Below, piece by piece: positions 52,216 to 64,000 of a DNA stretch of 64,000 nucleotides. This stretch comes from Thiosocius teredinicola. GTDB taxonomy: Bacteria; Pseudomonadota; Gammaproteobacteria; Chromatiales; Chromatiaceae. How positions within the stretch are numbered: position 1 is the stretch's first letter; each line of letters opens with the position of its first letter. The stretch lies in the NCBI RefSeq assembly GCF_002009425.1, contig NZ_CP019936.1:4637297-4701296 (forward strand), written 5' to 3'. The notes beneath the pieces were generated by a model, which had not been told where the DNA came from, searched no databases, and was given only the letters and a program-made list of their open reading frames with translations. A program made the position numbers and the translations under genes.

Positions 52216-52710
52216 TCACACGGCCTGCAGACGCTTCTTGATACGGTGCAAGCGTATGGTCATCGCGTTGCGACTCACACCGTACTCATCGGCGATCTCA
52301 GCCGTGGATCGGCCTTCGGCCAGTTGCATCAACAGCGGCTCGCGTTCGTCGTCACTGAGCCGGCCGAGGAGTTGATCGAGGTAGATCCGCTGATCCGGCG
52401 CCGCATCGTGCCCCAGATCATTGGCATGGTCGTCGATGTCGACCAGATCGAGCCGCTTACGCTCGAACAACCGCGCGTATTCGCGTTTCAGAATGGTGAT
52501 CAGCCAGGCTTTGCCGGCGGCGAACTGTTGTAGCGAGTCGGCTGCACGCCAGGCGCGTATCCAGGTCTCCTGCACCAGGTCGCGTGCCAGATCGGGGTCA
52601 CCGCACAGCATCCAGGCAACGCGGTTGAGCACATCATTGTGCGCCGCGTACAGGCTGTCGAAACAGTTTTTCGGGGTTTGTTCGGCGAGGCTTTGCTGCA
52701 TGGCACTCAT
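52216..52710 (-). CDS. ECF sigma factor
   Basis: A 164-residue group IV sigma factor: sigma-2 region LARDLVQETWIRAWRAADSLQ (about 40-60) and sigma-4 helix-turn-helix STAEIADEYGVSRNAMTIRLHRIKKRLQ at the C-terminus. Its ATG overlaps the TGA of the DUF255 gene (ATGA), so the two are translated together. No anti-sigma gene is adjacent on this operon. A matching ECF-type promoter lies before the upstream partner (54295-54324), suggesting autoregulation. Confidence 0.9.
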   Translation of the reverse strand: MSAMQQSLAEQTPKNCFDSLYAAHNDVLNRVAWMLCGDPDLARDLVQETWIRAWRAADSLQQFAAGKAWLITILKREYARLFERKRLDLVDIDDHANDLGHDAAPDQRIYLDQLLGRLSDDEREPLLMQLAEGRSTAEIADEYGVSRNAMTIRLHRIKKRLQAV

Positions 52711-54266
52711 GCCTGGTCTCCTTTCTTATTGCGCGGAATTAGAGTAAGTGAGTAGTTACTTTTTGAGTTCCTGATGCGGTCTCTGTCGGCCAGCAGGATG
52801 CCGGCGTCGGTCAGGCGAGAAACGGCGACCTCGGGCGTCGCGAGGTAACGCATGACGTGGTCGGCCAGGGCCCGCTGCCGGTCTTCGCCGGTGTGCGACG
52901 CGAGCGCGTACATGAACCGGGCGGCGTGGATGTTCTGATCGAGTTGCGGCGTCGGCTTGATCGGGGTGCCGTTATCCGCGGCAGACAGCAGCCCGCCTGG
53001 GGCGTGGCGAAACTCGCGATCGATGATGTCGGCGGCCAGTACCGCCTGTTTCAACCACACGGACTGACCGCTCACCTCGTACACGGCGAGCATCGCGCGG
53101 CCCATGTAGAGGTTGTCCGACAGGTAAGGCCCGGCTTTATCGTCTGCGCCGTGGCTGAAACCGCCGTCGGCGCGACGCCGATTACGCAGTACCCACTCCA
53201 GCGCCCGCGTCGCCAGGCGCAGGTGCTTGTCCTGGCCTGTCACCTGGTAGAGCGTGACCAGACCTTCGATCGCCTTGCCGTTGGCGTCGGCGTACTGGCT
53301 CTTGTCGATGCGCGGCAGGCCACGCGCCAAACGCTGGTCACGCGGCAGCTCGAAGTAATCGTGCGCCTTGCTCCCCTGCTCCAGATCGGCATCCTGGCTG
53401 GTGAACAAGCCGCCGTTGTCGGCCCGCATGAAGTCGTTGAGCCAGTTCGCGACCATCTCGGCTGCAAGGCGATAGCGCGGATCGCCGAACTGGTGGTACG
53501 CGAGGCTGTAGGCACGCAAGTAGGCGGCCTGCGTCGCCATGATCTTTTCGTAGTGCGGATGTGCCCAGTCGCCGTGGGTCGAGTACTGGTAGGCGCCGCC
53601 GAACTCGGCGTCGATCAGCTGCAGGGCGGCATCGAGGTGGCGGCGCGCACGCTGCGCGGCATCCGCGTCGCCATTGGCCGCCAGATGCAGATCCCATTCG
53701 ATCGAATCCGCATCGAGAAACTTCTGCATCAGGCGCAGACCGCCGGATGCGGGATCATCGGCATCCAGGTGGCGCTGTTGCAGGGCGTCGCGCAGCGCCG
53801 GGGACAACGCCGCGGAAACGGCGCTGGTTTGTGCAGCGCGGGTCGGCTTGTGCTGCTCGCTGCGGTCGATCGACGCCGTGCGCCGTAGCAGACCGGCCAT
53901 CTCATCCGGCGCGATATAGCCGGCGCGCTTCACCAGCTCGCGGCCGTCGGGGGTCAGGACGATAGTCGCCGGCCAGCCGTAGTCGCGATACCGTTCAGCC
54001 AGGTCCGGGCGCGCATCGTGGTCGGCCTGGACGGCGACATAGTGTTCGCTGAGCGCCTCGAGAACGCCCGCGTCCCGGTACGTCGTCGACTCCATGACGT
54101 GGCACCAATGGCACCATACGGCGACCAGATCGAGCAAAATCAGCTTGTCTTGTTTCTCGGCCTGATCGAATGCGGCTGGCCCGTAGGGCTGCCAGTCGGC
54201 TGCCGTCACCGCCCCGGTCGGCTGCGACAGCAGCAGTAGCAGTGTCAGTTCTCGCAAAGCGCGCAT
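52707..54266 (-). CDS. DUF255 thioredoxin-like protein, exported
   Basis: From ATG 54266, preceded by a strong GGAGGAGAAAGGG sequence, the product is 519 residues. It has a signal peptide (MRALRELTLLLLLSQPTGAVTA), an N-terminal thioredoxin-fold domain with the active site VWCHWCHVME (about residue 51) of the DUF255/YyaL family, and a C-terminal alpha/alpha barrel-like region (about 200-510, YQYSTHGDWAHPHYEKIM, GLFTSQDADLEQGS). Cytosolic homologues are long (about 680 residues); this exported, shorter form is unusual. Function is unknown; a periplasmic thiol or stress role is inference. Co-translated with an ECF sigma factor. Confidence 0.85.
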   Translation of the reverse strand: MRALRELTLLLLLSQPTGAVTAADWQPYGPAAFDQAEKQDKLILLDLVAVWCHWCHVMESTTYRDAGVLEALSEHYVAVQADHDARPDLAERYRDYGWPATIVLTPDGRELVKRAGYIAPDEMAGLLRRTASIDRSEQHKPTRAAQTSAVSAALSPALRDALQQRHLDADDPASGGLRLMQKFLDADSIEWDLHLAANGDADAAQRARRHLDAALQLIDAEFGGAYQYSTHGDWAHPHYEKIMATQAAYLRAYSLAYHQFGDPRYRLAAEMVANWLNDFMRADNGGLFTSQDADLEQGSKAHDYFELPRDQRLARGLPRIDKSQYADANGKAIEGLVTLYQVTGQDKHLRLATRALEWVLRNRRRADGGFSHGADDKAGPYLSDNLYMGRAMLAVYEVSGQSVWLKQAVLAADIIDREFRHAPGGLLSAADNGTPIKPTPQLDQNIHAARFMYALASHTGEDRQRALADHVMRYLATPEVAVSRLTDAGILLADRDRIRNSKSNYSLTLIPRNKKGDQA

Positions 54267-54294
54267 CCCTTTCTCCTCCAGATGTCTTACCTGG

Positions 54295-54324
54295 AGATAC
54301 GCAGGGGTATCGAAAACGGATGCA
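54295..54324 (-). promoter_or_regulatory. ECF-type promoter before the DUF255-sigma operon
   Basis: Minus strand: TGCATCCG, 15-base spacer, CGTATCT, with a predicted start about 22 bases before the ATG. The elements resemble bipartite ECF promoters rather than sigma-70 ones. Recognition by the sigma factor encoded in the same operon is inference. Confidence 0.55.
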
Positions 54325-54565
54325 CTTCGACGCAACTTTTTTGCGCCGGCTGTCGATCAGCTCAACGGTTGATGACCGGGCAGCCGATTCGGCCGCGCAG
54401 GGCACTCGCTGCCTTGCAACACCTTTCGAGGCTATTTATCTGCGTCCATGTCGGCGGCGACCACTCGCCTGCGCAAACCGGCAAAAGGGTTGGTTTTACT
54501 GAAAAAAGGACTCGACCCGCACCAAGCGCAGGATCGATGGCGCTCGAGGCGACTCGGCCGTGAGC

Positions 54566-55270
54566 CTAGATGCTGACCGGCGCGGCATACAAAACCGGCC
54601 CTGTCGGCACACCGGTCGGCGATCCGCCGGCCGGTTCAAGACTGACCGCCAGGGCCTTGGTGTCACGCCAGGTGGCATTGGCCGGCAACGACCGCTGGAT
54701 CTCGTTGCCGCTCAGCACACCCAAGGAGATCGGCGCCACGCCCTCGCCACGCACCAGCCACAGCTCATGCGCCTTGCCGGCAGCCGGCGCGGCCGCCGCC
54801 ACCCGACTGACCGCCACCTCGCGCGCCCGCCAATCGCACACCACCATCCATTGCGGCTGATCCTGCGTATCACGCAATACCACGTCATAGACCGGCAAGG
54901 CTTCGGGGCCTTGCACCGGGCCTTGGGTCAGCACCGGCACCAAGACCGCAAGCAAGGCCAGCAGCGCGGCCGCCGTGGTCATCCGCCACAGCATCAGCGA
55001 CTGCCACCATGGTGTCTTCAATGGTGCCTGCACAGCATCGTCGACCGCCCCCGGGGCAATCACGCGTTCGATCTCAATCCACACACGTTGTGGCGGCTGC
55101 ACGACGCTCGTCGTATCGTTCAGCCCGACCAGGCGTGCCTCCCACAGGTTCACCAGGTCGCGCAACGCAGGGTCGTGGTCCATCTGTTTTTCGAACGCTC
55201 GCCGTTGCTCGCCGTCGAGCGTACCGAGCACGAACTCTGCGGCCCGCATATCCCGTTCTTCGGCACTCAT
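54566..55270 (-). CDS. RskA-type anti-sigma factor
   Basis: A 234-residue protein with an N-terminal anti-sigma domain (about 1-60: AAEFVLGTLDGEQRRAFEKQ...), one membrane helix (about 97-117, TTAAALLALLAVLVPVLT) and an extracytoplasmic RskA domain (about 125-234: WMVVCDWRAREVAV, AHELWLVRGEGVAPISLGVL). It lies one base after the sigma factor stop. It should hold that sigma factor at the membrane until proteolysis. ATG 55270 is preferred over the upstream start that would overlap the sigma gene. Confidence 0.9.
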   Translation of the reverse strand: MSAEERDMRAAEFVLGTLDGEQRRAFEKQMDHDPALRDLVNLWEARLVGLNDTTSVVQPPQRVWIEIERVIAPGAVDDAVQAPLKTPWWQSLMLWRMTTAAALLALLAVLVPVLTQGPVQGPEALPVYDVVLRDTQDQPQWMVVCDWRAREVAVSRVAAAAPAAGKAHELWLVRGEGVAPISLGVLSGNEIQRSLPANATWRDTKALAVSLEPAGGSPTGVPTGPVLYAAPVSI

Positions 55271-55271
55271 A

Positions 55272-55847
55272 TCAACCACGGTAGTCGCCCTCCCCGTCCA
55301 GGCAGGCTTTCAGTACCTTCAGGCCGCGCCGAATCCAGCTTTTGATCGTGCCGACGGGCGAACCGAGCCGTTGGCTCAACTCGTCGTGCGTATAGCCCTC
55401 GCAGTACGCCAACACCAAACAAGCACGCCTGGGGCCTTCCAACTCATCAAGACAGGTATTCAGGCGCGCGTTGTCCACCGCCCTGCCCGCCAGTTCGGCC
55501 ACATCCGGCTCGTTGGCGGCGCGTTCTTCGAGGCCCTCTTCGGCGTCGACCTGCACCGCAGTCTTCGCCCGCCGCAACAGGTCGATGGCGCGATAACGGG
55601 CAATGCTCAACAACCACGTCATCACCGCACCCTTGCCCACGTGATACTCGGTGGCCTTGTGCCAAACCTTGATGAAAACGTCTTGCAAGGCATCCTCCGC
55701 CATCTCTTCGTTCTTCAAGATACGCAGGAGCACGGCAAACAGTTTCGCCGACGTCGCCTGATAGAGATCGGCGAATGCAATACGGTCTCCCATCGCGCAG
55801 CGCGCGACGAGATATTCAAGCGTCGAACCAGCCTGGGTCTCGGTCAT
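55272..55847 (-). CDS. ECF sigma factor, SigK-like
   Basis: A 191-residue ECF sigma factor: region 2 IAFADLYQATSAKLFAVLLRIL with AEDALQDVFIKVWHKATEY (about 25-70) and region 4 YCEGYTHDELSQRLGSPVGTIKSWIRRGLK (about 145-175). The partner anti-sigma gene follows directly. RskA-controlled sigma factors often answer redox or envelope stress; the inducer here is unknown. Confidence 0.93.
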   Translation of the reverse strand: MTETQAGSTLEYLVARCAMGDRIAFADLYQATSAKLFAVLLRILKNEEMAEDALQDVFIKVWHKATEYHVGKGAVMTWLLSIARYRAIDLLRRAKTAVQVDAEEGLEERAANEPDVAELAGRAVDNARLNTCLDELEGPRRACLVLAYCEGYTHDELSQRLGSPVGTIKSWIRRGLKVLKACLDGEGDYRG

Positions 55848-56180: not shown

Positions 56181-57278
56181 ATGTTCGCCCGTTTAGCCCT
56201 TGTCGTTGTCTTGCTCGCCATCATTTTCGGCGGCATCTTCGGCTGGAAATACCACACCGCCCAACAGATGGCCGCCGCCCAGGCGGGCGGACCGCCGCCG
56301 GCGGCCATCGCCGCGACGACCGTAAAACAGGAAAATTGGCGACCGTACATCCAGGTGGTGGGCAGCCTGTCGGCCGTCGCCGGCATTGAAGTCTCCAGCG
56401 AGGTCGGCGGGCTGGTCAGTGCGATCCACTTCAACTCGGGCGAACACGTCACTCAAGGCAAACTGCTGCTCGAACTCGATGACGAGACCGACCAGGCCGC
56501 ATTGAAAGGACTGGAGGCCGAGCGCCGCCTTGCCCTGCTCAAGTACCAGCGTGCGGCCCAATTGATCAAAGACAAATCGGTGTCGAAGTCGGACTTCGAC
56601 GAAGCGCGCGCAACACTCGACAACACCAGCGCACAGGTTGAGTCGCAGCGCGCACTGCTCGAGAAAAAGCAGATTCGTGCACCGTTCGACGGCCGCCTGG
56701 GGATTCGCCGCGTGGACCTCGGCGAGTACCTGACACCGGGCGCCGCCATCGTGCCGCTTGAACAACTCGACCCGATCTATGCCGACTTCACGCTGCCGGA
56801 GCGCGAGCTCTCGCGCATCACAGAGGGCCAGACCATCGCGGTCCAGGTGCAGGCCTACCCGGACCGGCGCTTCGAGGGGCACATTATCGCGATCGATCCC
56901 GGCATCCAGGTCGGCAGCCGCAGCTTCCGCGTCAGGGCGCAGCTCGAAAACGCTGACTCATCGCTGCGACCCGGCATGTTCGCCGACGTTCGCGTCATGA
57001 TGCCGACCGAAGACAGCGTGATCACGATACCCGGCGAGGCCATCAGTTACGCGCCGTACGGCGATTCGGTATTCCTCATCGAGGAGAAGGACGGCAAAAA
57101 AATGGTCTCGCGGCGCCAGATCCAGACCGGCAATACACGCAACGGCAGGGTAGAGGTCGTCTCCGGATTGCAGGTCGGTGACGAGATCGTCAGCGCCGGC
57201 CACAACAAGCTGCGCAACGGTCAGCCGGTCTTGGTCGACGACAAGCCGGCACCTTCCGAGCGGGCACCCGGCGCATGA
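56181..57278 (+). CDS. RND efflux periplasmic adaptor protein
   Basis: Membrane-fusion protein of 365 residues. It has an N-terminal membrane anchor (about 4-22), a lipoyl half-motif (VSSEVGGLVSAIHFNSGEHVT, about 74), an alpha-hairpin (about 100-165), the second lipoyl half (IRAPFDGRLGIRRVDLGEYL) and a beta-barrel domain (DFTLPERELSRITEGQ). It joins the inner-membrane pump to an outer-membrane channel. The stop overlaps the pump gene's ATG (ATGA). No TolC-type channel gene or TetR/MarR regulator is adjacent. Confidence 0.93.
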   Translation: MFARLALVVVLLAIIFGGIFGWKYHTAQQMAAAQAGGPPPAAIAATTVKQENWRPYIQVVGSLSAVAGIEVSSEVGGLVSAIHFNSGEHVTQGKLLLELDDETDQAALKGLEAERRLALLKYQRAAQLIKDKSVSKSDFDEARATLDNTSAQVESQRALLEKKQIRAPFDGRLGIRRVDLGEYLTPGAAIVPLEQLDPIYADFTLPERELSRITEGQTIAVQVQAYPDRRFEGHIIAIDPGIQVGSRSFRVRAQLENADSSLRPGMFADVRVMMPTEDSVITIPGEAISYAPYGDSVFLIEEKDGKKMVSRRQIQTGNTRNGRVEVVSGLQVGDEIVSAGHNKLRNGQPVLVDDKPAPSERAPGA

Positions 57279-60200
57279 AGTTCACCGATCTCTATATCAA
57301 GCGTCCGGTGCTGGCCAGCGTTGTCAGCCTGCTGATCCTGGTGGTCGGCCTGCGGGCGATCACCTCGCTCGAGGTCCGCCAGTATCCGGAAACCCAGAAC
57401 ACCGTGGTAACGGTCACGACCAGCTACCCCGGGGCGGGCGGCGAGTTGGTCAAAGGTTTCATTACCACGCCGCTGCAACAGGCGATCGCCGAGGCGCAGG
57501 GCATCGACTACCTGTCGTCGACCAGCCGCCAGGGCACCTCGGTGATCGAGGCGCACATGCAGCTCAACTATCCGCCGGAGGCGGCGGTCGCCGAGATCCA
57601 GGCGAAGGTCGCCAGCCAGCGCAACGTACTGCCGGCCGAGGCACAGGACCCGGTCATCACCTCGCAGACCGGCGATGCCACCGCGTTGATGTATCTGGCG
57701 TTCTACAGCGAATCGATGGCGCCGTCGCAGATCAACGACTATCTGCTGCGCGTGGTGCAACCCAAGCTGCAGGCGATCCCCGGCGTCGCCAAGGCCAACC
57801 TGATCGGCAACAAGAGCTTCGCGATGCGCGTCTGGCTCGACCCGCGACGCATGGCGTCACTCGGCGTGACCGCGAAGGACGTGGCCGACGTGCTGCGCGC
57901 CAACAACTACCTGTCGGGCATCGGCCAGGCGCGCGGCGAATACACGGTGATCGACCTGTCGGCCACGACCGACGTCGCCAACGTCGAAGACTTCCGCCGC
58001 CTGGTGGTACGCGACACCGGCGGCACGCTGGTGCGCCTCGGCGACGTCGCACGCCTCGATTTGGGCGCCGAAGACTATGAAACCTCGACCTGGTACAAGG
58101 GCCAGCCGGCGATCTTCGTCGGTGTCGAGCAGGCACCGGGGGCCAACCCGCTGACGGTCGCCAAGAAGGTCCACGTGGCGATCGAGCAGATCCGCAGCCA
58201 ATTGCCGACCGGTCTCGAAGTTCACATCCCGTACGACGCCAGCGCCTTCATCCAGGAGTCGATCGACGAGGTGTTCACCACGCTGGTCGAAGCGGTGCTG
58301 ATCGTGCTGGTCGTGATCTTCCTGTCGCTGGGTTCGATGCGTGCTGCCGTGGTGCCCGGCGTCGCCGTGCCGCTATCGCTGATCGGCGCTGCGTTTCTGA
58401 TGCTGATGGCCGGCTTTTCGATCAACCTGCTGACACTGCTCGCCATGGTGCTGGCGATCGGTCTGGTGGTCGACGATGCGATCGTCGTGGTCGAGAACGT
58501 TCACCGCCACATCGAGATGGGCAAGTCGCGCTTCCGGGCGGCGATCGACGGTGCACGCGAGCTCGGCCTGCCGATCATCGCGATGACCACGACGCTGGTC
58601 GCGGTGTATGCGCCGATCGGCTTCATGGGCGGGTTGGTCGGCACCTTGTTCACCGAGTTCGCGTTCTCGCTGGCCGGCGCCGTGCTGATCTCGGGCATCG
58701 TCGCGCTGACGCTGTCACCGATGTTGTCATCCAAGGTGCTGCAACCGGCCGGCAAGGCAGGGCGCTTCGAACACGCGGTCGAGCGCTTTTTCACCGGGCT
58801 GGCCAACTTCTACCTGCGTCGCCTGCGCGGTGCGCTGAACTACCTGCCGGCAACGTTGCTGTTCGCCGCGGTCGTACTTGGCAGTATCTATTTCATGTTT
58901 GCCACGACCCAGTCCGAACTGGCGCCGACCGAAGATCAGAGCATCCTGTTCTTCCAGGCGACGGCGCCGCAGACCGCTTCACTGCCATATAACGAGGCGT
59001 ATACGCGCGAGATCGTCGAAACGTTCGAATCGGTGCCCGAGTATCACGAGAGCTTCATCCTGGTGGGCTTCGGCGGCGACGACAACGTCGTGTTCGGTGG
59101 CTTCAAGATGGAACCGCCTTCGCAGCGCGAACGTTCGCAGATGGATGTCCAGCCCGAGCTGCAGGGCAAACTTGCCGGCATTGCCGGTTTTCAGACCGCG
59201 ATGTTCCCGCGGCCGAGCCTGCCGGGTAACCGTGGTCTGCCATTCCAGTTCGTGATCCAGAGCGACGCCGATTTCCGCGAGCTCGATCAGATCGCCGATC
59301 AGCTGATCGGGCAGGGCATGGCGAGCGGTCAGTTCCAGTTCCTGCAGAAATCGATCGAGTTCTCGCGGCCCAAGGCGGTCGTCGCGATCGACCGCGACCG
59401 CGCCGGCGACCTCGGCATCTCGATGGCCGACATCGGTCAGAACCTGGCGACGCTGCTCGGCGGCAACTACGTCAACCGCTTCAGCCTCGAGGGTCGAAGC
59501 TACAAGGTTATTCCACAAAGCGAAAAGACATTTCGCCTGACACCCGAGATGCTCGGTGATTTCTACCTGCGCTCGGCGAGCGGCGAGCAGGTGCCGCTAT
59601 CGTCGTTGGTGCGCATAGAGCGGGCGGTCGAGCCGAGCAAGCGCACGCAGTTCCAACAGCTCAATGCGATCACCGTGCAGGGCCTGCCGGCGCCCGGCGT
59701 ATCTGAAGGCGACGCGATGGCGGCGATGGAAAAGATCGCCGGCGAGGTGTTCCCACAGGGCTATAGCTTCGACTACACCGGCCAGACGCGGCAGTTCGCC
59801 CAACAAGGCAGCGCCTTGATCGCGACCTTCTTCATGTCGCTGTTGGTGATCTACCTGGTGTTGGCGGCGCAGTTCGAGAGCTGGCGCGACCCGCTGATCA
59901 TCCTGGTGTCGGTGCCGATGTCGATCGCCGGCGCGATGGCATTCCTGACACTCGGCTTCGCGACGATGAACATCTATACCCAGGTGGGCCTGATCACGCT
60001 GATCGGCCTGATCGCGAAGAACGGGATCCTGATCGTCGAGTTCGCCAACCAGTTGCAGATCGAAGAGGGGCTGGGCAAGCGCGAGGCGATTGAAAAGGCC
60101 TCGGCTATTCGCCTGCGACCGATCCTGATGACGACCATCGCCATGCTGGTTGCGATGGTGCCGCTATTGACGGCCAGTGGCCCGGGCGCAGTCAGTCGCT

Positions 60201-60394
60201 TCGATATCGGCCTGGTGATCACCACCGGCCTGGGTATCGGCACACTGTTCACGCTGTTCGTCGTGCCGGCCGTGTACATGCTGCTCGCGCGCGACCACCA
60301 GAAAGACCTCGAAGCCGCAGAGCAGGGCGGGGAGACTGAAGATGGCGCCGCGTCGCCACGCGACGAGGGCAAACCGCTGACCTCGTCGACCTGA
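57275..60394 (+). CDS. RND-family efflux transporter permease (AcrB/MexF-like)
   Basis: Proton-driven inner-membrane pump of 1039 residues, the full family length, with about twelve membrane helices and two large periplasmic loops. The proton-relay pair of aspartates in AIGLVVDDAIVVVENVHRH (helix 4) and the lysine in GLIAKNGILIVEFANQ (helix 10) are intact, so it should be active. It is of the hydrophobic/amphiphilic (HAE-1) type. Substrate range cannot be predicted; solvents, drugs or lipids are all possible. Confidence 0.95.
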   Translation: MKFTDLYIKRPVLASVVSLLILVVGLRAITSLEVRQYPETQNTVVTVTTSYPGAGGELVKGFITTPLQQAIAEAQGIDYLSSTSRQGTSVIEAHMQLNYPPEAAVAEIQAKVASQRNVLPAEAQDPVITSQTGDATALMYLAFYSESMAPSQINDYLLRVVQPKLQAIPGVAKANLIGNKSFAMRVWLDPRRMASLGVTAKDVADVLRANNYLSGIGQARGEYTVIDLSATTDVANVEDFRRLVVRDTGGTLVRLGDVARLDLGAEDYETSTWYKGQPAIFVGVEQAPGANPLTVAKKVHVAIEQIRSQLPTGLEVHIPYDASAFIQESIDEVFTTLVEAVLIVLVVIFLSLGSMRAAVVPGVAVPLSLIGAAFLMLMAGFSINLLTLLAMVLAIGLVVDDAIVVVENVHRHIEMGKSRFRAAIDGARELGLPIIAMTTTLVAVYAPIGFMGGLVGTLFTEFAFSLAGAVLISGIVALTLSPMLSSKVLQPAGKAGRFEHAVERFFTGLANFYLRRLRGALNYLPATLLFAAVVLGSIYFMFATTQSELAPTEDQSILFFQATAPQTASLPYNEAYTREIVETFESVPEYHESFILVGFGGDDNVVFGGFKMEPPSQRERSQMDVQPELQGKLAGIAGFQTAMFPRPSLPGNRGLPFQFVIQSDADFRELDQIADQLIGQGMASGQFQFLQKSIEFSRPKAVVAIDRDRAGDLGISMADIGQNLATLLGGNYVNRFSLEGRSYKVIPQSEKTFRLTPEMLGDFYLRSASGEQVPLSSLVRIERAVEPSKRTQFQQLNAITVQGLPAPGVSEGDAMAAMEKIAGEVFPQGYSFDYTGQTRQFAQQGSALIATFFMSLLVIYLVLAAQFESWRDPLIILVSVPMSIAGAMAFLTLGFATMNIYTQVGLITLIGLIAKNGILIVEFANQLQIEEGLGKREAIEKASAIRLRPILMTTIAMLVAMVPLLTASGPGAVSRFDIGLVITTGLGIGTLFTLFVVPAVYMLLARDHQKDLEAAEQGGETEDGAASPRDEGKPLTSST

Positions 60395-60414: not shown

Positions 60415-61581
60415 TTAGGGACGCGCATCGGCTGTTTTCTGGCCGATGCGGATCACCACGAACTCGGCCGGGCGTACCAGCGCAACCCCCACCTGAACGA
60501 TCAGGCGGCCGGCATCGATGTCGGCCTTGGTCATCGTGGTGCGATCGCAGCGCACGAAGAACGCATTACTGGATTTGCTGCCGGCCAGACGCCCCATTCG
60601 CCACTGGTCGTCGAGAAAGGTCTCAACGATCTGCCGGATCTGCGCCCAGAGGGGTTCATCGTTGGGCTCGAACACGGACCACTCGGTGCCCTGATTGATC
60701 GCGTGCTGCAGGAAGATGAAATAACGCCGCACGTTGACGTATCTCCATTCGGGATCGCTGCTCAGCGTGCGCGCGCCCCAGACCCGCAACCCGCGTTGCG
60801 GGAACTGGCGCAGCGTGTTGATGCCGACCGCATTCAGATGATCGGCCTGTGCCGCATTGAGCGCCTGCGCCACACCGATCACGGAGCGCATCACCTCGTT
60901 GGCCGGCGCCTTGTGTATTCCCTGGCGCCGATCGACCCGGGCCAGCACACCGGCGACTACCCCGGATGGCGGTATCGTGACCGTCTTGCGCGTCTTGCCG
61001 TCCGCCAACTGCAGCCAGGGGTAGTACAGTGCCGCCGACCGCGACTCGATCGATGCGGCATAGCGTTCGATCTCATCCGGGGCCTCACCGCGTAGTGGGT
61101 CCAGCAGCACGAAAACCCGTTCTGCGATATCTGCCGTGGCGGCAAAATCCAGCAACAGGCCGTTGACCTCACGCGCCAGTCTCGGCAACACCGTCGCCCC
61201 CGGTGCCGCCAGGGTAAACAGACCACGCAATCCGGCTACCGCGCGCAGTGCCGCCTGGTAGTTGCGCAGTGACGGTGCTCGACCGTTACCGCCAGCCACA
61301 CGAACCACGTGCAAGCGCGTTCCGCCTTCGGCAAAGAAGGCACGCACGGCATGCGCCATATGGTTGATCTGCCGCTGCCGGCCACCGATCGCCAGGTCCT
61401 CGCTGCCCCCGTATTGGCGCTGATAGGCGTGAAAGCTGGTGATCACCCGCGAAAGCCGGCCGGCCGTGCCGCGCGCCGTCGGCCCGATGAACAGGGTGGT
61501 CGGCGATGCAGTGGACATGATCCGGCGCGAGCGAAAGCTGACTTCTTCGACATAGACGCCAGGGGCAAGGTATTCAGGCAT
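60415..61581 (-). CDS. Contractile phage-type tail sheath protein (orphan)
   Basis: The 388-residue product matches the sheath family of contractile tails. Its N-terminus YLAPGVYVEEVSFRSRRI and TLFIGPTARGT are typical. The C-terminal domain FLDDQWRMGRLAGSKSSNAFFVRCD followed by VGVALVRPAEFVVIRIGQ is the well-conserved interlocking part. With ATG 61581 (GAGGAAAG about 7 bases upstream) the length is like P2 gpFI. The frame's upstream 29 codons lack resemblance. No tube, baseplate, spike, AAA ATPase or other phage gene is within the window, so it is neither a visible prophage nor an obvious contractile injection cluster. It lies 99 bases downstream of, and in line with, the radical SAM gene. 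Confidence 0.87.
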   Translation of the reverse strand: MPEYLAPGVYVEEVSFRSRRIMSTASPTTLFIGPTARGTAGRLSRVITSFHAYQRQYGGSEDLAIGGRQRQINHMAHAVRAFFAEGGTRLHVVRVAGGNGRAPSLRNYQAALRAVAGLRGLFTLAAPGATVLPRLAREVNGLLLDFAATADIAERVFVLLDPLRGEAPDEIERYAASIESRSAALYYPWLQLADGKTRKTVTIPPSGVVAGVLARVDRRQGIHKAPANEVMRSVIGVAQALNAAQADHLNAVGINTLRQFPQRGLRVWGARTLSSDPEWRYVNVRRYFIFLQHAINQGTEWSVFEPNDEPLWAQIRQIVETFLDDQWRMGRLAGSKSSNAFFVRCDRTTMTKADIDAGRLIVQVGVALVRPAEFVVIRIGQKTADARP

Positions 61582-61680
61582 GGTGGTTCTTTCCTCGGCG
61601 CGGTGGTCGCAGTAGCCGCGTAATCTACCTGTCCCGCGCCGATACGTCAGGCCAACGAATGCCGGCAATGCAAGTAACCC

Positions 61681-62790
61681 TCAGTGTGCGGGGTTGTGCG
61701 CCGCTTCCTGCACCGGCTCATGCATCGACACGGGCTGACGCCGGCTCCCCCAGTGCCCAGGCTCATTCTCGAACACGCCGGCAATCAGGTGGCCGCAGTT
61801 TGCGCAATGGCCGTTGTCCTTGAGTTGCCAATCGCCGAGCTGGTACCAGTCGCGCTCGATAACCCGGGTGCCGCACTGCGGGCAGTAGGTGCTGTCGCCC
61901 TCGGTGTCGTGCACGTTGCCGACGTACACATAGTGCAGGCCGGCATCCAAGGCGATACGTCGCGCCCGTTGCAGCGTGGCCGGCGGGGTAGGCGGTACAT
62001 CCGTCATTTTGTAGTCGGGATGAAACGCCGAGAAATGCAGTGGCACCTCGGGCCCGAGTTTTTCCAGGCACCAGTCTGCGAGGCGATGCAGTTCGTCGTC
62101 CGTATCGTTGTGGCCCGGAATCAGCAACGTGGTCAGTTCGAGCCAGCAGTCGGTTTCGTTGTGGATGTATTCGATCGTATCCAGCACCGGCAGCAGATGA
62201 CCGCCGGTCAACTTGTGATAGAAGTCTTCGGTGAACGCCTTCAGATCGACGTTTGCGGCATCCATATGGGAGAAGAACTCACGTCGCGGCTCTTCGCAGA
62301 TATAGCCCGCCGTGACCGCGACCGACTTGATGCCCTGTTCGCGACAGGCAGCGGCCGTATCCAGCGCGTATTCGAAGAAGATCACCGGGTCATTGTAGGT
62401 GTAGGCCACGCTGCGGCATCCGAGGCGCTTGGCGGTGGCGGCGATCGTCTCCGGCGCGGCGCTGGAAGCCAGGGTATCGATCTCGCGCGATTTGCTGATA
62501 TCCCAGTTCTGACAGAACTTGCAGGCCAGGTTGCAGCCTGCCGTACCGAATGAGAACACCGGCGTGCCCGGCAGAAAGTGGTTAAGCGGTTTCTTTTCGA
62601 TCGGGTCGACACAGAAGCCGCTGGAGCGCCCGTAGGTGGTCAATACCATCTGGTCGCCTTCGCGCGCGCGCACGAAACACAGACCGCGCTGGCCGTCCTT
62701 CAGATGACAATAACGCGGGCACAGGTCGCATTGGATGCGACCGTCATCCCGTATGTGCCAGAAACGACCGGGTACGGTGTCGCTAATCAT
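61681..62790 (-). CDS. amrS: AmmeMemoRadiSam system radical SAM enzyme
   Basis: Radical SAM protein of 369 residues from ATG 62790 (GGGAGG upstream). The [4Fe-4S]-SAM motif is CNLACKFCQNWDISK (about 84-98). An N-terminal CDLCPRYCHLKDGQRGLC cluster and a C-terminal zinc-ribbon-like pair (CPQCGTRV, CANCGHLI) are also present. This matches the PflA-like enzyme associated with AMMECR1 and Memo proteins. The reaction is unknown. The extra 48 upstream codons of the open frame are not family-like. Confidence 0.92.
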   Translation of the reverse strand: MISDTVPGRFWHIRDDGRIQCDLCPRYCHLKDGQRGLCFVRAREGDQMVLTTYGRSSGFCVDPIEKKPLNHFLPGTPVFSFGTAGCNLACKFCQNWDISKSREIDTLASSAAPETIAATAKRLGCRSVAYTYNDPVIFFEYALDTAAACREQGIKSVAVTAGYICEEPRREFFSHMDAANVDLKAFTEDFYHKLTGGHLLPVLDTIEYIHNETDCWLELTTLLIPGHNDTDDELHRLADWCLEKLGPEVPLHFSAFHPDYKMTDVPPTPPATLQRARRIALDAGLHYVYVGNVHDTEGDSTYCPQCGTRVIERDWYQLGDWQLKDNGHCANCGHLIAGVFENEPGHWGSRRQPVSMHEPVQEAAHNPAH

Positions 62791-62920
62791 GACAGACCTC
62801 CCTATGTGTCCGATGTCGGACTGAGGCAGCTCAAACAACTTCACCGAAACGGCGCAAGATGCTTGCAATCCAACAGCCAATGACCCATTAAATCTATAGA
62901 CCCGCAGCCCATGGGGAGCC

Positions 62921-63706
62921 ATGATGCACGTCAAAACACCCGCCGTCGCCGGGTTGTTCTACCCCGGCACGGAGCCAGAACTACGCAATACCGTCGACAG
63001 GCTGATGCAGACCGTATCGGCCGACAGCGAGGTGCGGCCGCATGCCTTGATCGCGCCGCACGCCGGCTACCAGTATTCCGGTCCGATTGCTGCAAATGCC
63101 TACGCCTCGCTGCGCCCCTGGGCCGCGGAAATCCGCCATGTGGCGGTATTGGCGCCGTCGCACCGGGTACCGTTCCGCGGCATAGCGCTGAGCAACGCCG
63201 ATGCCTTTCAGACCCCGTTGGGTGCGATACCGGTCGATACCGAAAGGGTGAAGTCGCTGGCGGCGCTGCCGCATGTCGGTTACCTGGATGCAGCCTTCGC
63301 CGAAGAACATGCCCTCGAGGTCCAATTGCCGTTTCTGCAACGCGTGCTCGACGACTTCAGCCTGATCCCGCTGATCGTCGGCGATGCCGAGGGTGAGGAT
63401 GTTGCCCAGGTGATCGAAACCCTGGTCGCAGACGATATCCTGATCGTCGTCAGCTCGGATCTCAGCCACTATCACGGCTATGCGGAGGCACAACGGCGCG
63501 ACGCCAACACCACCGGGATGATCGAAGCCATGCAGGCGGATGACATCGGCCCGTATGACGCCTGCGGCGCTTACCCGATCCGCGGGCTGTTGAAGGCGGC
63601 GCAACACCACGGTTGGCACGTCAAGACACTGGATCTGCGCAATTCCGGTGACACGGCCGGCGATAAATCGCGCGTGGTGGGATACGGAGCCTATGAGTTC
63701 TACTGA
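62921..63706 (+). CDS. amrB: AmmeMemoRadiSam system protein B (Memo family)
   Basis: A 261-residue protein of the Memo family, related in fold to class III extradiol dioxygenases: VAGLFYPG, LIAPHAGYQYSGPIAANAY, VLAPSHRVPFRGIALS, EEHALEVQLPFLQRVL, and VVSSDLSHYHGYAEAQRRD with histidines lining the presumed metal site. Start ATG 62921 or the adjacent ATG 62924. It diverges from the radical SAM gene and overlaps the next gene by 14 bases. Confidence 0.93.
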   Translation: MMHVKTPAVAGLFYPGTEPELRNTVDRLMQTVSADSEVRPHALIAPHAGYQYSGPIAANAYASLRPWAAEIRHVAVLAPSHRVPFRGIALSNADAFQTPLGAIPVDTERVKSLAALPHVGYLDAAFAEEHALEVQLPFLQRVLDDFSLIPLIVGDAEGEDVAQVIETLVADDILIVVSSDLSHYHGYAEAQRRDANTTGMIEAMQADDIGPYDACGAYPIRGLLKAAQHHGWHVKTLDLRNSGDTAGDKSRVVGYGAYEFY

Positions 63707-64000
63707 ATCCATCAATGAATTCGGGCCTGCGCAGCGCGCCGCATTGATCGAGATCGCACGTCGTTCGATCGAGCATGGCCTGCAGTTCGGTCGACCCTAC
63801 GTGGTGATACCCTCGGAACTCCCACGCGACCTCAAGGCGATCCGCGCCAGCTTCGTCACCTTGCAAAAGAACGGCGAGCTGCGCGGCTGTATCGGCCACC
63901 TCGAAGCGGTCCAGCCGTTGGGCGTGGATGTGGCCGAAAACGCCTTCGCCGCCGCATTTCGCGACCCACGCTTTGCGCCGCTGCGTGCCGCGGAATTCGA
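63693..64000 (+). CDS. amrA: AmmeMemoRadiSam system protein A (AMMECR1 domain), partial
   Basis: Begins at ATG 63693 inside the end of the Memo gene and runs off the right edge; about 102 codons are visible. LIEIARRSIEHGLQFGRP, ASFVTLQKNGELRGCIGHLE and AFAAAFRDPRFAPL are the AMMECR1 signature blocks (the LRGCIG core is nearly invariant). Function is unknown; tight coupling with Memo suggests a shared step. Confidence 0.93.
   Translation, partial: MSSTESINEFGPAQRAALIEIARRSIEHGLQFGRPYVVIPSELPRDLKAIRASFVTLQKNGELRGCIGHLEAVQPLGVDVAENAFAAAFRDPRFAPLRAAEF

Follow-up and report, generated by a model that had tools for sequence, protein, structure and literature searches.

Sheaths are usually regarded as machine parts. 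If selection maintains single sheath genes in the absence of tube and baseplate, the lattice they form is useful in itself. This question is raised by a lone eCIS-type sheath gene of Thiosocius teredinicola, which lies in a stretch of 64,000 nucleotides (hereafter the window). Surveys that demand several linked core genes cannot detect lone sheaths. The host of this copy, T. teredinicola 2141T, is described as a cultivated shipworm gill symbiont (PMC7705117), which makes the question directly testable.

Sheath gene and its neighbourhood

The genome of the window (G000) consists of 1 contig of 4,790,451 bp with completeness 100. The features of the locus are listed in Table 1. In the 388-aa protein PF04984 and PF17482 reach 64.2 and 43.3 bits, above their curated cut-offs of 31.4 and 26.9. 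Hence, the original prediction of an intact sheath protein with a conserved C-terminal domain is borne out. The PHROG match of the gene is tail sheath (E 1.3e-57), and the top match of the protein in the PDB sequence search is 9ezm (E 5e-84). The protein is assigned to the eCIS sheath family by the two Pfam domains together, by the fold with its arms and by the near-invariant positions. GC by codon position (67.6/49.4/76.3%) follows the pattern of a coding gene and resembles that of five nearby genes, the second position being somewhat higher in the sheath gene. No promoter for the gene is found by a sigma-70 scan.

Table 1. Features of the lone sheath locus and the T6SS operon of the same genome
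Feature	Position	Strand	Remarks
eCIS-type lone sheath gene	60415..61581	-	ATG at 61581, 388 aa
Shine-Dalgarno-like AGGAAAG	61589..61595	-	7 nt 5' of sheath ATG, read from sequence
N-terminal arm, residues 1-20	61522..61581	-	residues 1-17 pLDDT < 50; 8/9 conserved positions kept in 1-24
Insertion-domain site, residues about 95-100	61282..61299	-	surface domain of tube-linked relatives absent here; alignment of 13 sheaths
Helix 309-328	60598..60657	-	8/10 conserved positions kept in 311-339
C-terminal arm, residues 371-388	60418..60471	-	residues 372-388 pLDDT < 50
AcrB-type RND efflux pump	57275..60394	+	convergent with sheath gene; adjoins radical SAM gene in G001
Radical SAM gene (AmmeMemoRadiSam set)	61681..62934	-	co-directional, 99 nt upstream of sheath gene
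Memo gene	62921..63706	+	PF01875 170.5 bits
AMMECR1 gene, truncated by window end	63690..64000	+	PF01871 79.5 bits
T6SS operon of G000 (VipA, VipB, Hcp, gp25, TssF, TssG, ClpV-like)	L072, G000:C1:3147500-3167400

The nearest neighbours (AcrB-type RND pump, radical SAM, Memo and AMMECR1) are ordinary cellular genes, as had been predicted. The true start of the radical SAM gene probably lies downstream of the longest-frame start. This gene is present in all eight congeners. In one of them, G001, no more than a few tens of bases separate the radical SAM gene from the RND gene, and there is no sheath; the remaining seven have the RND gene at a greater distance or outside the stretch fetched.

A second block is absent at the corresponding place in G001. 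It occupies 52707-55847 of the window (compare L160), comprises genes for a DUF255 thioredoxin, an RskA-type anti-sigma and an ECF sigma factor, and separates the pump membrane fusion gene from the T2SSE gene, which are near neighbours in G001.

Search for tube, cap and baseplate

Does the sheath have partners? Ten profiles made from the eCIS of a congener find nothing except this sheath in the window and in 17.9 kb past the other side of the gene (L071), and eight of the ten, rerun on the window at E <= 0.01, again find the sheath alone. The source genes of these profiles include the second sheath and the second tube of that eCIS. The sheath, tube, Pvc16 cap, CIS_tube/LysM and gp25 were identified by Pfam (tube and sheath via same-profile matches), the gp27-like and baseplate-J-like profiles were named by eye, and the profile labelled cap4255 is not a cap. 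These profiles find no tube or baseplate gene in the window, in line with the original prediction, and no gp25, LysM, gp27-like or baseplate-J-like gene is linked to the sheath in the window and L071.

Genome-wide searches covered the sheath, tube, cap and gp25, and those for gp27-like, baseplate-J-like and LysM genes covered the window and L071. The only PF04984 match in G000 is the gene at 60415-61581 itself, with no second sheath. A 17-row eCIS tube profile finds no tube at E <= 0.1; it detects all three positive controls, of which G007 and G078 have their own rows in the profile and G757 has none. PF14065 (Pvc16/DUF4255) finds no cap and detects its controls G007, G078 and G504. The PF06841 tube search of G000 is also empty, but its control is silent too, so the absence of the tube rests on the 17-row profile instead. 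The sole gp25 match sits in the T6SS operon, between VipA, VipB, Hcp and TssF, TssG, ClpV-like genes. Hence, as far as the profiles reach, the earlier suggestion that the rest of the apparatus is encoded elsewhere in the genome does not hold: a hidden eCIS is ruled out for tube, cap and gp25. What G000 contains is a single intact eCIS-descended sheath gene, without tube or cap, between two genes that adjoin in a congener.

Two other identities of the gene were rejected. The edge of a prophage or tailocin is contradicted by the tail-gene profiles, which give no other match in the 60 kb to one side of the gene or in the 18 kb to its other side. A T6SS sheath is excluded since the protein matches PF04984/PF17482 and not the VipA/VipB families. 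Phage matches to the sheath reach an identity of at most 37.6% among the best 10 of 807 records.

Structure and conserved positions

The AlphaFold2 model of the window protein (28-row alignment) has pLDDT 82.4 and pTM 0.81. Foldseek places it on the CIS sheaths of Streptomyces, Halogeometricum borinquense, Algoriphagus, AFP and PVC, with Streptomyces CIS sheath 9gts as the top PDB match (E 4.6e-34, query TM 0.81). Sheath subunits are described as interlocking through terminal arms and binding the tube by an attachment helix (PMC6088184, PMC8894135). Residues 1-20 are disordered in the predicted monomer, as expected of an exchange arm, and would be exchanged between neighbouring subunits. Helix 309-328 is probably the positional equivalent of the tube-attachment helix, judging by the known sheaths treated in PMC6088184.

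The window protein is short. A surface insertion domain of roughly 180-200 residues is present in the three aligned tube-linked sheaths of its subclade, and all 25 tube-linked rows of the subclade tree have at least 562 aa (longest frame). The domain is missing from the window copy, G098 and G122, with left edges that differ among them.

The core, on the other hand, is well kept. Near-invariant sites, defined as at least 85% conserved among 105 tube-linked sheaths, number 61, and the window copy retains 59 of them, with T to S and V to I at the other two; for tube-linked rows the median number of missed sites is 3. This limits any unconstrained phase at those sites to about 0.10 amino-acid changes per site at most. 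With such a ceiling the window copy is either under selection or recently orphaned.

Lone sheaths in other bacteria

The genomes searched form overlapping sets of 142 relatives, 369 of the class, 398 of the phylum and 210 of the order, together with 17 of the genus of G098. Counts are based on fetched loci in which a sheath frame reaches 250 bits or more; 93 genomes have one. A tube lies beside every sheath seen in 73 of them. Ten carry a lone sheath confirmed with wider flanks (G000, G098, G122, G277, G479, G504, G573, G820, G822 and G832); since only the best matches per search were fetched, 10/93 is not a frequency. Each of these flanks measures 8.4 kb or more, apart from one side of G479, where the contig ends after 3.9 kb; in G000 they reach 60 kb and 18 kb. 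In five more genomes (G017, G022, G032, G370, G889) the sheath is at a contig end or in a short locus and was counted neither as lone nor as tube-linked, and five low-scoring ones (G070, G103, G459, G531, G792) are read as phage-type by score and context. The named contigs have the tube in 32/32 cases. At the order level a sheath match occurs in 51 of the 210 genomes, with a tube alongside in 18 of 19 newly fetched loci.

The tube profile finds no tube in G000, G277, G573, G820, G822 and G832, and only a match of E 0.022 in G122. By PF14065 search a cap is absent from nine of the ten lone-sheath genomes; the exception is G504, which has, besides its lone sheath, another contig with a cap, two tubes and a sheath. 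A single lone tube gene occurs in G098 and another in G479, each on a contig different from that of the lone sheath. These lone tubes (L151 9093-9776, G098:C37; L152 9258-9767, G479:C10) have no other eCIS profile match within about 9 kb. In G479 a hemerythrin-domain gene (L136 8443-8862) overlaps the start of the lone sheath. In G573 a 201-aa AAA ATPase piece (L135 10858-11463) stands directly upstream, with a 4-base overlap with the lone sheath start, as if an eCIS had collapsed through internal deletion.

Congeners of the window genome were examined as well. No intact lone sheath occurs in the eight: G007 has an eCIS that looks complete, on a separate contig, G008 a stub, and the remaining six nothing at E <= 0.001. 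The G008 stub is C-terminal, of 60 codons and 58% identical, with no N-terminal part found alongside; at L138 9686-9865 (G008:C15) it reads in frame into an unrelated long frame and is thus a decayed sheath in the genus of the window. Three tube matches each are found in G002, G003 and G005, where the sheath search at E <= 0.001 is empty; of the matches in G005 (L187, L192 and L194, G005:C464) one has an internal stop. The three clustered PF06841 tube genes of G002 (L153, G002:C110, 2788-4727) and G003 (L154, G003:C20, 8236-10182) are a mirror image of the lone sheath; they adjoin riboflavin genes, as seen by eye, and in L154 one tube gene is fused behind about 180 extra residues.

Phylogeny and shared neighbours

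In the trees the window sheath is placed in a subclade of long eCIS sheaths. A quick tree of 122 rows requires 7 label changes with only the ten verified lone rows and 14 with seven undecided rows added. Seven changes mean that lone sheaths are several lineages, not one. The first subclade tree joins the window copy with G098 and G832 at 63/95.9, where G098 and G832 are not shown as sisters; the second joins it with G122 at 51/31, a long-branch join, and there its grouping with G098 and G832 is not rejected (p 0.437). The window copy sits on a long branch (1.08; median 0.36, first subclade tree). One ancient lone-sheath clade is not supported: the five lone rows of the subclade as one clade have p-AU 0.039 in the first subclade tree (G022, at a contig end, being only possibly lone), and a clade of window, G098 and G122 has p 0.0021 in the second.

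No gene family near lone sheaths is seen at more than two loci of different genera, and a conserved partner gene was rejected since sharing is limited to pairs of loci. An ECF sigma gene and a DUF255 thioredoxin gene lie near the sheath both in the window and in G122, at up to about 6 kb (about 5 kb in G122); the two sigma genes are 34% identical but come with anti-sigma genes of different types. A DUF4331 gene lies within about 6 kb of the lone sheath of G122 (L065 15599-17134) and of the possibly lone sheath of G022 (L069 2-541). A tblastn of the ECF sigma, DUF255 and DUF4331 genes against all loci, including about 9-20 kb of extra flank for seven other lone-locus genomes, gives no further case beyond the syntenic gene of the window, G001, G007 and G008. 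The scatter of lone sheaths and the lack of a widely common neighbour family fit remnants as well as domestication. A mobile vehicle was also considered and rejected: the only viral contig from a pattern-limited scan (L167) and the two plasmid records examined, out of 25 listed among 157 matched, carry multi-gene CIS loci.

Selection on lone sheaths

Among the relatives searched the window copy has no close ortholog, and the dN/dS figures come from other lone lineages. G098 and G832 belong to one genus, and their sheaths are sisters at 100/98 in the second subclade tree. Tube and cap are both absent from G832 by profile. The two loci have common surroundings (alpha-galactosidase, methyltransferase, MFS and DUF1456 genes) with local shuffle; given that the precise position of the sheath is not the same, two independent insertions are just conceivable. 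The sheath pair has dN 0.281 and dS 0.651, a ratio of 0.43 (bootstrap 0.35-0.53), and four neighbour genes have 0.24-0.35. Neutral simulation of this sheath gives a mean of 4.9 stops per lineage with a minimum of 0. The pair differs by the in-frame loss of about 170 residues, which form a surface domain, and the core is intact. The shared region suggests a common ancestor whose sheath was already lone; in that case G098 shed the insertion domain in its lone life and retained the core.

The syntenic lone pair G820/G822 has dN 0.0096 and dS 0.0497, a ratio of 0.19 (bootstrap 0.10-0.34) on 29 nucleotide differences; other genes around it range from 0.00 to 0.67. Lone sheaths are thus intact in two congeneric pairs with dN/dS below 1, and the values point to purifying selection that is weaker than for most neighbouring genes.

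Proposed tube-free use and its alternatives

We tentatively suggest that the window gene is a retained sheath used without tube and baseplate, most likely as a self-assembling, self-standing homopolymer, and give this reading a little less than an even chance. The second option of the original prediction, a sheath domesticated for another job, is plausible for the window copy. In favour of tube-free use are the sheath fold of the model, the near-invariant positions kept, the coding-type GC by codon position, the two lone pairs with dN/dS below 1 and the precedent of the T4 and phiKZ polysheaths. In the proposed mechanism the monomer would fold as the sheath core, with the N- and C-terminal arms free until they pair with neighbours. 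With arms free in this way, the protein is expected to assemble by itself in the cytoplasm, into rings or into an empty tube resembling polysheath. Such a polymer, being without the outer insertion domain, would be thinner and would lack the surface features of that domain. At a guess, it could serve as a scaffold, or its subunit could block or cap contractile machines. The retention of core, arms and helix together with the absence of the outer domain suggests to us that the protein can self-assemble and that any function would be tube-free. Several observations weigh against this. The attachment helix is about as conserved as elsewhere (8/10) and is not required without a tube. The diffocin sheath did not self-assemble, in the account of PMC6088184. 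No congener (0/8) retains an intact lone gene, and lone sheaths are scattered on the tree. Finally, the sigma-70 scan gives no promoter, and the ceiling of 0.10 changes per site leaves room for recent orphaning.

The window copy may instead be recently orphaned. A young remnant, left from a lost eCIS or transferred in alone, undecayed and without a job, is almost as likely as the tube-free use, with somewhat less than an even chance. It is favoured by the stub of G008, by the sheathless tube matches of G002, G003 and G005 with their one internal stop, by the ATPase piece upstream in G573, by the order-level matches (51/210 genomes, 18/19 new loci tube-linked) and by the long branch of the window copy. 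However, 59 of 61 near-invariant positions are retained, the ribosome site and codon composition are good, the whole surface domain is absent in frame, and two other lone lineages evolve at dN/dS below 1. The original prediction had named a normal locus in relatives, or loss or decay in close strains, as signs of a remnant. This stands in part: homologs are tube-linked in 73 of 93 genomes and 0 of 8 congeners have an intact lone sheath, but two congeneric pairs elsewhere keep theirs intact under dN/dS below 1.

It is unlikely that the short sheath is an interfering subunit, which would co-assemble with the sheaths of resident, competing or phage machines and jam or cap them. Kept core and arms with a missing outer domain would suit such a role, and relatives often have eCIS-type sheaths (a match in 51 of 210 order genomes); against it, the host itself has as its contractile machine a T6SS, whose sheath is another pair, VipA and VipB. 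That the sheath works in trans with a distantly encoded tube and baseplate is very improbable: the lone tubes of G098 and G479 and the conserved attachment helix would agree with it, but G000, G832, G277, G573, G820 and G822 have no tube or cap and the sole G000 gp25 belongs to the T6SS, so that for G000 it is refuted as far as sequence profiles reach, though a strongly diverged tube might evade them.

Returning to tube-free use, we consider with more doubt its general form, that lone eCIS sheaths reflect recurrent domestication in which the sheath alone is kept, the outer domain is sometimes trimmed and the polymer takes a tube-free intracellular or interference role.

Comparison with known systems

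The protein family is already known; lone selected sheath genes are without description among the literature matches listed. None of the listed titles is about lone sheath genes, the search for lone or leftover sheaths having most subscription papers and bioRxiv outside its scope. The eCIS survey in PMC8213781 states a threshold of at least 4 linked core genes, later at least 10, and since several linked core genes are demanded, lone sheaths are excluded by construction. To that extent it was fair to call the locus something undescribed.

The T6SS sheath VipA/VipB is also contractile and present in G000, but it belongs to PF05591 and PF05943, whereas the lone gene has PF04984 and PF17482 and lies about 1.5 Mb from the T6SS. 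The N4 sheath reportedly acts as a receptor binder. Non-contractile sheaths, which PMC9230969 counts as 2 among 114 from phages, likewise have the sheath fold without contraction, but are phage proteins. The sheaths of T4 and phiKZ form polysheaths without tube or baseplate, and according to PMC6088184 this assembly uses domain I only, whereas the diffocin sheath CD1363 has no tendency to self-assemble. Polysheath, however, arises from sheath produced apart from a phage which does possess the partner genes; none of these was found in G000. Finally, the eCIS sheaths (Afp2/3/4, Pvc2/3/4, AlgoCIS, Streptomyces CIS) are like the window protein in sequence (PDB E 7e-80 to 3e-30), fold, arms and core motifs. 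Unlike them, it occurs in a genome where no tube, cap or eCIS gp25 is found, and it is a short form.
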